Shown piece by piece: positions 18,065 through 27,940 of a stretch of DNA of 64,000 nt (position 1 is its first letter; each line of letters starts with the position of its first letter). The DNA is taken from contig JAHBTR010000002.1 in assembly GCA_019638475.1 (NCBI GenBank), positions 434,001 to 498,000 on the forward strand, in the 5' to 3' direction. The position numbers were made by a program, and so were the translations under genes. The notes beneath the pieces were generated by a model that was given only the letters and a program-made list of their open reading frames with translations, did not search any database and had not been told where the DNA came from. The DNA is from Chitinophagaceae bacterium (GTDB lineage: Bacteria > Bacteroidota > Bacteroidia > Chitinophagales > Chitinophagaceae).

Positions 18065-18200
18065 AAATATGAAGGGGGGATTTGGTGATTAGGGAATTGG
18101 GTAATTGAGGAATTAGGTAATTGGGGAATTGGTGATTAGGTAATTAAAGAATTGGTAGTTAGCTATGAACCATGAACCACTAATCATTAACCATTAATCA
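18065..18200. repeat. degenerate tandem repeat patch (GGTAATT / AACCATTAATCA words)
   Basis: The first half is built from loosely repeated GGTAATT, GGAATT and GGTGATTAG words; the second half reads AACCATGAACC then repeated CATTAACCATTAATCATTA words, partly complementary to the first. Related words in the opposite orientation (AATGGTTAATGGTGAATG) occur at 27941-27985 after pntB. No coding potential is seen. It looks like a slippage-grown intergenic repeat. Confidence 0.5.
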
Positions 18201-18977
18201 TTAATTTTTACTAATATCTGTATGGTTATTTTTTTTAATTCTTCCAGCACCTTTATAACGATTTCTCCAATAAGTTTCATTCAAATCACTAATCATTACT
18301 CCATTACTGGTAGAAGCATGTACAAATTTGTTATTCAGAATATAAAAACCTACATGAGATACTCTTTTTCTTTTACCTCCACTATGAAAGAAAACCAAAT
18401 CTCCTTCTTCTAAATCATCAGTGGCTATTTTTTTAGAAGCATTATATTGTTCTTGTGAAGTTCTTGGTAATTCAGCACCATACACATCTATAGCTATTGT
18501 TTGTGTAAATGCAGAGCAATCAATACATCTTTCTGTAGTGCCTCCTAAACAATATTTTGTACCCCACCATTTTTCTATATTTTGTAAAAGCGGAATATTG
18601 GTTAATTTTTCTACAGTTGCATCTAATATCACTGCATATTTTAATTGTAAATAATCGGCACTTTCAATAGTAGATTTTGATATAGCTTCATTGGGTTTTG
18701 TATAAGTTACTGTTTGGGTATTGGCTGTAGAAGTTTGTTCACCCTTATCAACTTTACTTTTCTTAGAAGCAGTATTGGTTGTATTATGCTTTGATGTAAC
18801 TACACTACCTGGAGATACTTCAATATTTTCAATAAACTTTACTTGTTTATGCTGATTGGCTAATTGCTCTTTAGAAGCAGAAGTAGAAACATCTTTAGAG
18901 GCAAGGGTTTGCAAAGACTTACAACTTGTAAGTACAGCAATGGCTGCCAATACCAGTATTACATTTTGTATTTTCAT
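18201..18977 (-). CDS. NlpC/P60 family C40 peptidase lipoprotein
   Basis: Cell-wall hydrolase of 258 residues, predicted to cut peptide cross-links of peptidoglycan (gamma-D-Glu-diamino acid bonds in this family). A lipoprotein signal ends in LTSC (cysteine near residue 19). A low-complexity Ser/Thr/Lys linker follows to about residue 120. The C-terminal NlpC/P60 domain has the catalytic cysteine in IDCSAFTQ, the histidine in VSHVGFYI and the third polar residue, His, in FVHAS. The arrangement resembles Spr/MepS-type endopeptidases. It is the only gene between the repeat patch and the dnaE leader and is transcribed away from dnaE. Confidence 0.88.
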   Translation of the reverse strand: MKIQNVILVLAAIAVLTSCKSLQTLASKDVSTSASKEQLANQHKQVKFIENIEVSPGSVVTSKHNTTNTASKKSKVDKGEQTSTANTQTVTYTKPNEAISKSTIESADYLQLKYAVILDATVEKLTNIPLLQNIEKWWGTKYCLGGTTERCIDCSAFTQTIAIDVYGAELPRTSQEQYNASKKIATDDLEEGDLVFFHSGGKRKRVSHVGFYILNNKFVHASTSNGVMISDLNETYWRNRYKGAGRIKKNNHTDISKN

Positions 18978-24444: not shown

Positions 24445-25560
24445 ATGATTGCAGCAATTTTAAAAGAGCCAAATAATGAAAACAGGGTTTCTCTTTTACC
24501 AGAGCAAGTGCAAGCCCTGATTAAAAAAAATGTTCAAGTAGTAGTAGAAGAAGATGCAGGAAAAAATGCAAGTGCATGGAACAATGCTTATACAGATGCA
24601 GGAGCAACTATTGTAAGCAGACAAAAAGCATTAGAAAGTGATTTGATACTCAGTATTCATCCTTTAACTGATAATGATATTACCCATGTAAAAGCTAATG
24701 CTGTACTATTAGGTGTTTATCAGCCATTATTTTGTAAAGATATTATGCAGTCTTGGGCATCAAAAAATCTTAACTGTTTTAGTATAGATATGATTCCAAG
24801 AACTACCAGAGCTCAAAGTATGGATGTATTAAGTAGCCAAGCAAATATTGCAGGTTATCGTGCAGTATTATTAGCTGCTACATTGTTACCTCATTATTTT
24901 CCTATGTTTATGACAGCAGCAGGTAGTATAGCTCCTGCAAAGGTTTTAATATTAGGTGCTGGTGTAGCAGGTTTACAAGCCATAGCCACAGCAAGACGTT
25001 TAGGAGCAGTAGTAGAAGTATTTGATACACGCCCTGCTGTAAAAGAAGAAGTACAAAGTCTTGGAGCAAAATTTATAGAAGTAGAAGGTGCAGCAGATGC
25101 AAGCAAAGCTGGTGGTTATGCTGTAGAACAAACAGAAGAATACAAACAAAAACAACAACAAAAAATTGCCGCATCAGTAGCAAAGAGCAATGTAATTATT
25201 ACTACTGCTCAAATACCAGGGAGGCAAGCACCCATTCTTATAACACAAGAAATGTTGCATAGCATGAAAACAGGAAGTGTTATTATAGACCTTGCAGCAG
25301 CCACAGGAGGCAATACTCCTTTAACAAAAAATAATGAACACATAACTACTGATAATGGAGTGTTGATAGTGGGTAATAGTAATTTACAAAGTGGTATGCC
25401 AAGTGATGCAAGTAAATTATATGGAAAAAATATTATGAACTTTCTACAATTAATTATTACCAATGAAGGAGCTATTAACCTAAACTTTGAAGATGAATTA
25501 GTAAAAGGAACTTGTATAACAAATAATGGAAAAATTGTTCATGAAAGAGTTATTGGATAA
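24445..25560 (+). CDS. pntAA: NAD(P) transhydrogenase alpha subunit, soluble part
   Basis: Subunit alpha-1 of the proton-translocating NAD(P) transhydrogenase, which passes hydride between NADH and NADP+ coupled to proton flow. The 371-residue protein is the soluble NAD-binding domain I only, without membrane helices. It starts AAILKEPNNENRVSLLPEQV; the Rossmann motif is VLILGAGVAGLQAIATA near residues 167-183. The PntAA-type loop DTRPAVKEEVQSLGAKFIEVE and the QTEEYKQKQQQKIA segment follow. The stop is followed 30 bases later by pntAB. The split-gene organisation is common in Bacteroidota and alphaproteobacteria. Confidence 0.95.
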   Translation: MIAAILKEPNNENRVSLLPEQVQALIKKNVQVVVEEDAGKNASAWNNAYTDAGATIVSRQKALESDLILSIHPLTDNDITHVKANAVLLGVYQPLFCKDIMQSWASKNLNCFSIDMIPRTTRAQSMDVLSSQANIAGYRAVLLAATLLPHYFPMFMTAAGSIAPAKVLILGAGVAGLQAIATARRLGAVVEVFDTRPAVKEEVQSLGAKFIEVEGAADASKAGGYAVEQTEEYKQKQQQKIAASVAKSNVIITTAQIPGRQAPILITQEMLHSMKTGSVIIDLAAATGGNTPLTKNNEHITTDNGVLIVGNSNLQSGMPSDASKLYGKNIMNFLQLIITNEGAINLNFEDELVKGTCITNNGKIVHERVIG

Positions 25561-25590: not shown

Positions 25591-25905
25591 ATGCAAAATA
25601 TATTAAATTTCATAACAGAACATCAGCAAATTTTATACATAGTAATTCTAATGATTTTTTTAGGAATAGAAATTATTGGAAAAGTTCCCAGTGTATTGCA
25701 TACACCATTAATGAGTGGCGCAAATGCTATACATGGAGTAGTAATTATTGGTGCAATAATAGTAATGGGCAAAGCAGAAAGTGATAATTACCTTGCACTT
25801 ATTTTAGGCTTTTTGGCTGTTATACTTGGTACACTAAATGTAGTAGGTGGTTTTGTGGTAACTGATAGAATGTTGGAAATGTTTAAGAAAAAAACTAAAG
25901 GCTAA
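25591..25905 (+). CDS. pntAB: NAD(P) transhydrogenase alpha subunit, membrane part
   Basis: Membrane subunit alpha-2 of transhydrogenase, about 104 residues with three to four transmembrane helices, matching the family block EIIGKVPSVLHTPLMSGANAIHGVV near residues 25-50. Together with PntB it forms the proton channel. The ATG at 25591 (MQNILNFITEHQQ) is preferred; the frame also opens at a TTG at 25567. The next transhydrogenase gene, pntB, is not directly downstream: a four-helix-bundle gene and a repeat array lie between. Confidence 0.93.
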   Translation: MQNILNFITEHQQILYIVILMIFLGIEIIGKVPSVLHTPLMSGANAIHGVVIIGAIIVMGKAESDNYLALILGFLAVILGTLNVVGGFVVTDRMLEMFKKKTKG

Positions 25906-25932
25906 AAAAAGAAAAACTAAACTACTCAACTG

Positions 25933-26289
25933 ATGGAAAATAAGTATGTAGATTTAGAACAACGAACGGAAAGGTTTTCTTTGGCAATAAGAGATTTTTG
26001 TGTTAAGATAAAAAAAGATACTATCAATCTTGAATATATTAAACAGGTAGTTAGGTCAGCAGGTTCAGTTGGGGCAAATTATATTGAAGCAAATGATGGT
26101 TTAGGGAATAAGGATAAAAAGATGAAGATTAGAATAAGTAAAAAAGAAGCAAAAGAGTCTGCGTATTGGTTAAGGCATGTATTAGTTTATGAAAAAGTTG
26201 ATTTAGAAAAAATAAAATTAGAATTAATATCAGAAGCTCAGCAATTAGTGTTAATATTTGCTGCAATACTTAGAAAATTAGATGATTAA
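25933..26289 (+). CDS. four helix bundle protein (23S rRNA intervening-sequence protein family)
   Basis: Small helical protein of 118 residues of the four-helix-bundle / 23S rRNA IVP family, typified by the conserved QVVRSAGSVGANYIEANDGLG segment and the SKKEAKESAYWL helix. Such proteins occur inside 23S rRNA intervening sequences or as scattered single genes in Bacteroidota, often in variable places, and their function is unknown. Here the gene sits inside the pnt operon, 27 bases after pntAB, on the same strand. Its start (ATGGAAAAT) matches the first nine bases of pntB. It probably entered the operon later. Downstream its stop is followed by the repeat array that leads into pntB. Confidence 0.85.
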   Translation: MENKYVDLEQRTERFSLAIRDFCVKIKKDTINLEYIKQVVRSAGSVGANYIEANDGLGNKDKKMKIRISKKEAKESAYWLRHVLVYEKVDLEKIKLELISEAQQLVLIFAAILRKLDD

Positions 26290-26310
26290 AATACCCGAGT
26301 TTTACACTTT

Positions 26311-26536
26311 AGTTTTTATACTTTAAATATTAGTTTTTAATGAAAAATTTTAGTTTTTATACTTTAAGTATTAGTTTTTAATGGAAAATATTAGTTTTTA
26401 TACTTTAAGTATTAGTTTTTATACTTTAAGTATTAGTTTTTAATGGAAAATATTAGTTTTTAATGGAAAATATTAGTTTTTATACTTTAAGTATTAGTTT
26501 TTATACTTTAAATATTAGTTTTTAATGGAAAATATT
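26311..26536 (+). repeat. tandem array of eleven 20/21-nt units carrying the pntB start region
   Basis: Two unit types share the 5' word AGTTTTTA. Unit A (21 nt) starts AGTTTTTATACTTT; unit B (20 nt) starts AGTTTTTAATGG and holds an ATG. The order is A B A B A A B B A A B, at starts 26311, 26332, 26352, 26373, 26393, 26414, 26435, 26455, 26475, 26496 and 26517. The first B is slightly degenerate (ATGAAAAAT). The last B unit contains the actual pntB ATG at 26525 and its first four codons. A degenerate extra copy may precede at 26298-26310. Confidence 0.9.
26340..26525 (+). promoter_or_regulatory. chain of four overlapping mini-ORFs leading into pntB
   Basis: Reading from the ATG at 26340 gives mini-ORFs 26340-26381, 26381-26443, 26443-26463 and 26463-26525, encoding 13, 20, 6 and 20 residues (MENISFYTLSISF-like). 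Each ends in TAA whose last base is the first base of the next ATG (TAATG), and the last stop overlaps the pntB start. Such overlaps normally allow translation reinitiation. That it regulates PntB is inference. Confidence 0.6.
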
Positions 26537-27940
26537 CTTACAATCTGTTACCTCATTGGTTCGGTAACTTTCATTTTAGGGTTAAAAATGTTATCCCATC
26601 CTGCAAGTGCCAGAAAAGGAAATCTTATAGCAGCAGCAGGTATGACTATTGCTATTTTAGGTACTATCTTTTTGTATGAAGACAAAGAAGAAGGTAAAAA
26701 ATTAGGAAACTATATTTGGATTTTTAGTGGGTTAATTATAGGTACTATTGTAGGTACACTCATTGCCAAAAAAGTTAAAATGACTGCCATGCCTCAAATG
26801 GTGAGTTTATTTAATGGTATGGGTGGTGCTTGTGCTGCATTAATTTCTATTATAGAGTTTCAACATATTGCACATAATATAGAAAATGGAGGAGGTGCTG
26901 TACATCATGGATTATTAATAAGTATTTTTTTAGGAGCAATTATTGGTTCTGTTTCTTTTGCAGGTAGTATGATTGCTTGGGGAAAATTAAATGGCAATAT
27001 AAAAGATTATGCTTATGGTGGACAACAAGTAGTTAATGTAGGCTTAATGGCTGTAATATTAGGTATTGCGGCTTATTTACTTTTTACACTTTCTCCAGAA
27101 AATGCTTATTGGTTTTATATCATATTTGCTGTATCATTATTATATGGTGTATTATTTGTAATGCCTATTGGTGGTGCAGATATGCCTGTGGTAATTTCTT
27201 TGCTTAATTCATTTACAGGTGTGGCTGCTGCTTGTGGAGGCTTTTTGTACGATAATAAAGTAATGCTTACAGGAGGTATTTTAGTAGGTGCTGCTGGTAC
27301 ACTACTTACAATTTTAATGTGCAATGCCATGAACAGAAGTTTGAAAAATGTATTGTTGGGTTCATTTGGTGGTGCTACAAAAGCAAGTGGAGGAAATAAA
27401 GAACAAGGCAATTACAAAGAAATTTCTTTAAGCGATGCCGCAACAGTTATGGCATATTCAAATAAAGTAATGATAGTGCCTGGCTATGGTTTAGCTGTAG
27501 CTCAAGCACAACATACTTGCCATGAGTTAGAAAAATTATTAGAAGAAAAAGGAGTAGAAGTAAAATATGCTATTCATCCTGTAGCAGGTCGTATGCCTGG
27601 ACACATGAATGTTTTATTAGCAGAAGCAGATGTAAGTTATGATAAACTACTTGAAATGGAAGAAGCTAATGATGAGTTTAAAAATACTGATGTAGTATTA
27701 ATTTTAGGTGCTAATGATGTAGTAAACCCTGCTGCAAAAAATGACCCTTCATCACCAATTTATGGAATGCCTATTTTAGAAGTAGAACAAGCAAAAACAG
27801 TTATTGTTAATAAAAGAAGCATGAAACCAGGTTATGCTGGTATTGAAAATGATTTATTCTTTCAGCCAAAAACATCTATGCTATTTGGTGATGCAAAAGC
27901 TGCATTACAAAAATTAGTTGCAGAAATTAAAAATGTTTAA
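26525..27940 (+). CDS. pntB: NAD(P) transhydrogenase beta subunit
   Basis: Beta subunit of the proton-translocating transhydrogenase, 471 residues. About nine transmembrane helices occupy residues 1-270, including LKMLSHPASARKGNLIAAAGM, MPQMVSLFNGMGGACAA and PIGGADMPVVISLLNSFTGVAA. The C-terminal NADP-binding domain starts near residue 290 and has VPGYGLAVAQAQH, HPVAGRMPGHMNVLLAEA and ILGANDVVNPAA. It completes the PntAA-PntAB-PntB enzyme of the operon. The ATG at 26525 is the last of five ATGs in a tandem repeat and overlaps the stop of the preceding mini-ORF by one base. This is an odd initiation region for a core metabolic gene. Confidence 0.96.
   Translation: MENILTICYLIGSVTFILGLKMLSHPASARKGNLIAAAGMTIAILGTIFLYEDKEEGKKLGNYIWIFSGLIIGTIVGTLIAKKVKMTAMPQMVSLFNGMGGACAALISIIEFQHIAHNIENGGGAVHHGLLISIFLGAIIGSVSFAGSMIAWGKLNGNIKDYAYGGQQVVNVGLMAVILGIAAYLLFTLSPENAYWFYIIFAVSLLYGVLFVMPIGGADMPVVISLLNSFTGVAAACGGFLYDNKVMLTGGILVGAAGTLLTILMCNAMNRSLKNVLLGSFGGATKASGGNKEQGNYKEISLSDAATVMAYSNKVMIVPGYGLAVAQAQHTCHELEKLLEEKGVEVKYAIHPVAGRMPGHMNVLLAEADVSYDKLLEMEEANDEFKNTDVVLILGANDVVNPAAKNDPSSPIYGMPILEVEQAKTVIVNKRSMKPGYAGIENDLFFQPKTSMLFGDAKAALQKLVAEIKNV

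Follow-up and report, generated by a model that had tools for sequence, protein, structure and literature searches.

A four-helix-bundle gene in the transhydrogenase operon of a Chitinophagaceae bacterium as the possible core of an IVS-like element with inverted heptamer arms

How did a gene for a small four-helix-bundle protein come to separate two genes of a transhydrogenase operon, and what kind of genetic object is it? The window analysed here, a stretch of 64,000 nucleotides from a Chitinophagaceae bacterium, carries on its + strand pntAA (transhydrogenase alpha, NAD domain, 24445-25560), pntAB (25591-25905) and pntB (transhydrogenase beta, 26525-27940), host-operon genes whose identities are backed by Pfam and NCBIfam profiles (PF01262/PF05222 and NF006942, PF12769, and PF02233, respectively). 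A first-pass annotation had reported that pntAB and pntB are separated by a 118-residue gene of the PF05635/TIGR02436 (IVP) family on the same strand. This gene is present and intact, although the span given for it, 25906-26310, was slightly over-wide, the ORF proper occupying 25933-26289. The ORF passes the curated cut-offs of both profiles (41.4 bits for PF05635, cut-off 33.8; 53.8 bits for TIGR02436, cut-off 24), and by sequence comparison its product matches the solved structure 2RLD (E=2e-6). In Pfam, PF05635 is the sole match of the protein and a transposase domain was not found. An Rfam scan of the whole window at gathering scores returned tRNA only, and the IVP gene lies outside any 23S rRNA gene. 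The genome (G000, 2.6 Mb) contains 12 PF05635 matches, among which the pnt-locus gene has the lowest score.

The gene is bracketed by repeats. A left arm of A-rich, degenerate 7-bp repeats (AAAAACT AAAGGCT ...; 25878-25921, + strand) takes in the last codons of pntAB (...KKKTKG*); it is identical at the same site in G001, the closest relative, and near-identical in G300, which belongs to another genus. In most of the relatives fetched, pntAB ends in a run of K residues and a stop and the left arm is lacking, while in G000 and G001 the last codons and the stop of pntAB come from the arm. On the other side of the gene, a right arm (26300-26331, + strand; core AAAAACTAAAG) is an inverted copy of the left one, 26 of 32 aligned columns matching. 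Arms were scored at PF05635 loci by comparing the 200 bp upstream of the gene with the reverse complement of the 200 bp downstream; the threshold of 28, like the ps limit of <=0.60 applied to orthologous pairs below, was set with the data in view. Taken alone, the arms of the pnt locus are modest, their score of 28 being reached by 8 of 347 other genes of the genome.

The repeat array that had been noted after the gene is real. It extends from 26309 to 26524 (+ strand), beginning 20 bp past the IVP stop codon, and consists of 20/21-bp units made of the right arm and the pntB start; TRF resolves it into four overlapping rows (scores 176-356), and the anchor TTAGTTTTTA occurs in it 11 times. Four ATG micro-ORFs with TAATG ends lie at 26340-26525, each stop overlapping the next start in a relay into pntB. 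According to the first-pass annotation, the gene may have entered at the pntB start, an event that duplicated the site into the array. The identity of the first nine bases of the IVP gene and of pntB (ATGGAAAAT) on which this idea drew is real, the 10-base match ATGGAAAATA is common to both starts, and the array units contain the pntB start. The nine-base agreement is nevertheless a mild coincidence, since the chance that two ORFs of the genome agree over their first nine bases is about 0.0033 (365 ORFs) and since it was spotted post hoc; the 10-base match could also be due to chance. The same insertion exists elsewhere with no array, which comes close to the kind of finding that the first-pass annotation had named as refuting it: G001 has the gene at this site (91.5% protein identity) with one copy of each repeat unit, in a single-copy precursor ...TTTAGTTTTTATACTTTAAATATTAGTTTTTAATGGAAAATATTC..., and in G300 the right spacer is shorter than 100 bp and holds no such array. 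In addition, an arm is found upstream of the supposed target, on the pntAB side of the gene, which leaves entry at the pntB start unsupported, and I regard this scenario as highly improbable. What stands of the suggested common history is that the array is tied to the element, as expanded right arm plus pntB start; it was not produced at insertion. Since G001 has the gene without the array, the array postdates the gene. It probably arose in the present species when slippage secondarily expanded the right arm, a process that two TTAGTTTTTA copies and an AAATATT common to the right arm and the pntB start may have seeded.

The occupancy of the pnt site was surveyed in 59 relatives, of which 47 gave a pntB match; 29 loci were fetched, 28 of them with pntAB directly upstream of pntB. 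Empty sites, a check that the first-pass annotation had called for, are the rule: in 26 of these 28, pntAB and pntB are separated by a spacer of 3-165 bp that lacks the gene. The two others are G001 and G010, the latter with an IVP protein of 50-56% identity in two pieces in different frames. Solo hairpins are not claimed for the empty pnt spacers, where the best scores were <=25. Several relatives show peculiarities of pntB itself: it matches in two stretches in G004, G005, G006, G009 and G011, with a short in-frame insertion near query residue 187, it is similarly split near query residue 119 in G012, and in G007 (L100, C28:1-8000) it stands without pntAA or pntAB in the 8 kb read, unlike in the other relatives examined. 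In a family sample of 147 genomes, 82 match the IVP protein; among the best 11 loci outside the genome under study, five lie between pntAB and pntB (G300, G308, G254, G362 and G293, with interrupted copies in G254 and G362) and six elsewhere. The arms of G300 at the pnt site score 33, and its left arm aligns with that of G000 with a score of 55, the maximum among 153 other loci being 26.

One IVP subfamily holds the pnt spacer in eight genomes (G000, G001, G010, G254, G293, G300, G308 and G362). Broadly, the lower the pntB identity, the less its members resemble the window protein, and the IVPs of the pnt site by and large follow host relatedness. This pattern is compatible with vertical inheritance accompanied by many losses. 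Could the gene then be an ordinary operon gene, such as a local RNA- or DNA-binding regulator, that happens to have repeat-rich flanks and was lost many times? Its dN/dS of 0.18 against G001, which denotes purifying selection, would suit such a role. However, occupancy of the pnt site is patchy, with empty sites in closer relatives, and synonymous divergence disagrees as well. Between G000 and G001, dS of the IVP gene is 0.198 at the pnt site and 0.085 at the second shared site, acc, far under the flanks and in contrast to 0.50-1.20 in 15 other gene comparisons (Fisher p against the operon neighbours, 5e-6 and 4e-8, respectively). At these two sites the low synonymous divergence is limited to the element. 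The longest identical run between the two genomes at the pnt locus, 107 bp (25861-25967), extends from the pntAB tail through the arm into the gene start; the next longest in 12 kb is 55 bp.

Low divergence is not universal. Sixty-five orthologous-site pairs were available. In 14 of them one flank or both were unsaturated (ps <=0.60), and in these 14 the IVP synonymous difference is below both flanks in seven (pnt and acc included), between them or tied in four and above them in three. Nor is it a constant property of the gene, since the values for L127/L147 and L133/L147 resemble those of the flanks. One of the three pairs above the flanks, L135/L145, has flank dS of only 0.35 and 0.50, yet a different IVP gene and different heptamers; judging from the sequences, this is an in-place replacement. 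Separately, L130, L131, L134, L135, L137 and L145 have, in several genomes, IVP genes with different arms in what is apparently the same host gene pair, a recurrent site. Three further IVP sites of the genome were each compared with four relatives. The L004 site is empty in all four. The L001 site is empty in G008, G007 and G003, and G001 has arm-like repeats there without a gene. The L006 site is empty in G001, G007 and G003, while G008 retains a decayed copy, with an expanded arm and only the 3' part of the gene. By eye, no clear target duplication was seen at the empty sites. Together with the recurrence of the same arm design at unrelated sites and in other phyla, described next, the empty sites, the in-place replacement and the divergence values make simple vertical descent of an operon gene rather unlikely.

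The arm design was examined in three sets of PF05635 loci: a genus set (72 matches, of which 66 were used after six fragments were dropped, 64 with enough flank), a phylum set (30 loci, the best from a survey of the phylum in which 157 of 198 sampled genomes have PF05635 genes) and a multi-phylum set (80 loci ranked by similarity to Bacteroidota proteins, 77 with enough flank). The sets are not independent: orthologous pairs are included in the genus set, and similarity to Bacteroidota proteins determined the ranking of the multi-phylum set. Arms scoring >=28 are found in 38 of 64 loci of the genus set, 17 of 30 of the phylum set and 53 of 77 of the multi-phylum set, compared with 1.5%, 2.5% and 2.0% of cross-locus pairs, respectively; more than half of the tested loci thus have the architecture, while 26, 13 and 24 loci miss the threshold. 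In the genome under study, 9 of 12 PF05635 loci reach it. Among control genes it is reached by 9 of 348 ORFs of that genome, one being the pnt-locus IVP gene itself, and by one of 116 neighbours on the multi-phylum contigs. The multi-phylum loci, assigned to taxon groups from record titles, include Acidobacteriota (6/6 with arms), Alphaproteobacteria (4/4), Betaproteobacteria (2/3), Gammaproteobacteria (1/3), Clostridia (8/9), Cyanobacteria (3/3), Planctomycetota (5/6), Bacteroidota (14/22), Patescibacteria (3/9, six missing the threshold), a single Methanophagales record (1/1) and others in ones and twos. The Methanophagales locus, L240, combines an IVP gene with heptamer-like arms; its record, titled Methanophagales archaeon, is a metagenome bin, so that contamination is possible.

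The arms are heptameric and polar. Autocorrelation at lag 7 amounts to 0.054-0.110 in both flanks in all three sets, and peaks recur at lags 14 and 21, less strongly in the phylum set; controls stay at <=0.02 at lag 7 (300 genes; 134 genes). In arm pairs scoring >=28, counted with a linear gap cost that gives 35, 17 and 53 loci in the sets, G exceeds C in the 5' arm in 101 of 105 cases, with a consensus NNNNAGT; pooled over loci, the GC skew lies between +0.28 and +0.35 in the upstream flank and between -0.18 and -0.25 in the downstream flank, as against -0.03 to 0.07 in controls. The gene itself is mostly in the sense orientation, sharing its direction with the genes on either side in 59 of 66 genus loci, 26 of 30 phylum loci and 52 of 77 multi-phylum loci (both neighbours being known in 68), compared with 36 of 75 control genes. 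Direct repeats flanking the gene score >=28 in 5 of 64 genus loci (1.2% of cross pairs); a few loci do carry such repeats, instead of or besides inverted ones, since L005, L008 and L079 score 52, 86 and 160. Long TCAACC/TCAATC direct repeats occur slightly upstream of the IVP gene in both L057 (G005) and L067 (G006). A cognate code between protein and heptamer was sought and rejected (Mantel r 0.011, within 500 permutations whose maximum was 0.10; Spearman -0.04), and sharing of arms is commoner only between close IVP protein pairs. Two other loci, L063 (G009:C109) and L044 (G004:C313), have an IVP domain that opens a roughly 300-residue ORF and may represent fusions. At L091 (C1:224811-225059 of the genome under study) a decayed IVP gene with an internal stop has kept inverted AATGTTTAATG arms (score 37).

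Are the arms part of the element, or are they independent heptamer repeats, of the kind of the cyanobacterial STRR heptamers, that act as hot spots receiving IVP genes? Heptamer tracts without an IVP gene do exist: the genome has six 7-bp tracts of this sort in 464 kb, as against none or one for any other lag between 5 and 12, and one of them is in the window, at 18161-18213; the arm-like repeats of G001 at the L001 site are a further case of repeats that remain without a gene. The window tract belongs to an intergenic stretch without an IVP gene, 18076-18213, where inverted degenerate 7-8 bp repeats (GGTAATTGGG... / ...CACTAATCATTAACC) form an apparent solo arm pair. Across genomes, the counts of heptamer tracts (6, 0, 1 and 2 in 464, 233, 282 and 288 kb) are too small for a claim that they track IVP number. 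The hot-spot reading is disfavoured by the fixed polarity of the arms around IVP genes, and also by the L004, L001 and L006 sites, where 10 of 12 spacers of relatives contain, by eye, neither gene nor obvious arms. It is in my opinion improbable.

The closest known parallel is the intervening sequence (IVS) of 23S rRNA. In Coxiella burnetii, as described in passages of PMC4990558, the IVS has complementary borders, is cleaved by RNase III and contains GACAGAT heptamers ahead of an S23p ORF; the same passages mention earlier ideas that IVSs are transposition remnants or former mobile elements, and term their function and origin still unclear 25 years after description. The pnt element is similar in its protein family, in its complementary ends, modest at this locus and strong across the family, in its heptamers, in its sense orientation within a transcribed host locus and in its patchy spread, as far as those passages characterize IVSs (PMC4990558). 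It differs in that it occupies the spacer of a protein-coding operon, has heptamer runs on both sides and gives no signal of pairing at the RNA level. Whether the arms could nonetheless work as in 23S rRNA, pairing in the operon mRNA so that RNase III cuts the stem, frees the IVP message and fragments the polycistron, is a matter on which the data are divided. The IVS precedent, in which complementary ends, RNase III cleavage and possible S23p ORFs go together (PMC4990558, same passages), and the strongly favoured sense orientation of IVP loci both agree with it. By contrast, GU-compatible mismatches between the arms are not in excess (102, versus 119 incompatible ones; p=0.28), the RNA of the pnt-site element folds no better than shuffled sequences in two species (z +0.75 in G001, +1.77 in G000), and an rRNA match was found in none of the 24 loci selected for an Rfam scan out of the 80 of the multi-phylum set. 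An RNA-level IVS thus seems unlikely. A role of the arms in DNA is preferred because both the wobble test and the folding test at the pnt site were negative.

A precedent for a DNA-level role comes from DGRs. The accessory protein Avd resembles PF05635 according to the portion of PMC10053308 consulted, and DGR homing requires a DNA hairpin that is needed for its structure and not for its sequence, as stated in part of PMC3240598. By likeness to the DGR target, the arms may act as a DNA hairpin or cruciform. The likeness has a limit: the genome's only reverse transcriptase match in a PF00078 search is on contig C7, while the IVP gene is on C5. Eight of 10 genus genomes had no match, and a reverse transcriptase as regular partner was rejected, matches being confined to 2 of these 10 genomes.

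The explanation that I favour, and consider probable though by no means assured, is that the pnt gene forms the protein-coding part of a small mobile element of the IVS kind that would be exchanged at fixed sites. The layout of such an element, a left arm of degenerate 7-bp repeats, the IVP gene and an inverted right arm, in sense orientation in an operon spacer, is established by the loci described above, as are the arm polarity, the site histories and the low synonymous divergence at two sites. The element would move as a unit, or be exchanged and retained, at fixed sites in a homing-like manner, most likely at the DNA level; its inverted arms would act as a hairpin or cruciform to which the IVP protein, an Avd-related four-helix bundle, might bind. 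Since only PF05635 matches the IVP protein, the element would depend on host or trans-acting enzymes to be cut and copied.

By profile and sequence, the pnt gene is of the same family as the TIGR02436 'four helix bundle protein' genes (PDB 2GSC, 2RLD), an annotation borne by scattered single chromosomal genes. The papers examined describe for these genes neither flanking inverted heptamer arms nor a preference for the sense orientation nor exchange in place. Intergenic 7-bp units like those of the arms are on record: GGGAATC/GGGGAYT is described from Xanthomonas and Nostoc, generally without association to mobile elements, and the Xanthomonas copies lie between aligned ORFs, some of them paired in inverted orientation (main text of PMC4692102); TAACTGA is described from Beggiatoaceae, Cyanobacteria and Bacteroidetes (main text of PMC4679880). 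These two articles treat G-quadruplexes or translation, and the terms S23 and four helix are absent from both main texts; a 23S rRNA IVP domain is named in a figure legend of PMC10910872. IVSs and heptamer repeats are thus each known, and their link to scattered IVP genes was not found in the literature searched: among the matches listed from open-licence literature, there was no paper joining non-rRNA IVP genes to inverted or heptamer repeats.

A wider proposition can be put forward only tentatively, and I hold it to be possible but doubtful: PF05635 may be the hallmark of homing hairpin elements that act at the DNA level and form a class so far unrecognised yet widespread in bacteria, and perhaps present in some archaea, with the G-rich strands of the heptamers pointing inward. 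The 23S IVSs would be members that landed in rRNA, and the orphan heptamers of Nostoc, Xanthomonas and Beggiatoaceae would be traces of such elements. Inward-pointing G-rich strands are the geometry that would be expected if repeat-adding synthesis had lengthened both 3' ends of a break. If the shared architecture is true, the scattered 'four helix bundle' annotation would come to denote an element that can be defined and for which ends, sites and partners are predicted, and heptamer repeats that have been reported without a mechanism would have a source.
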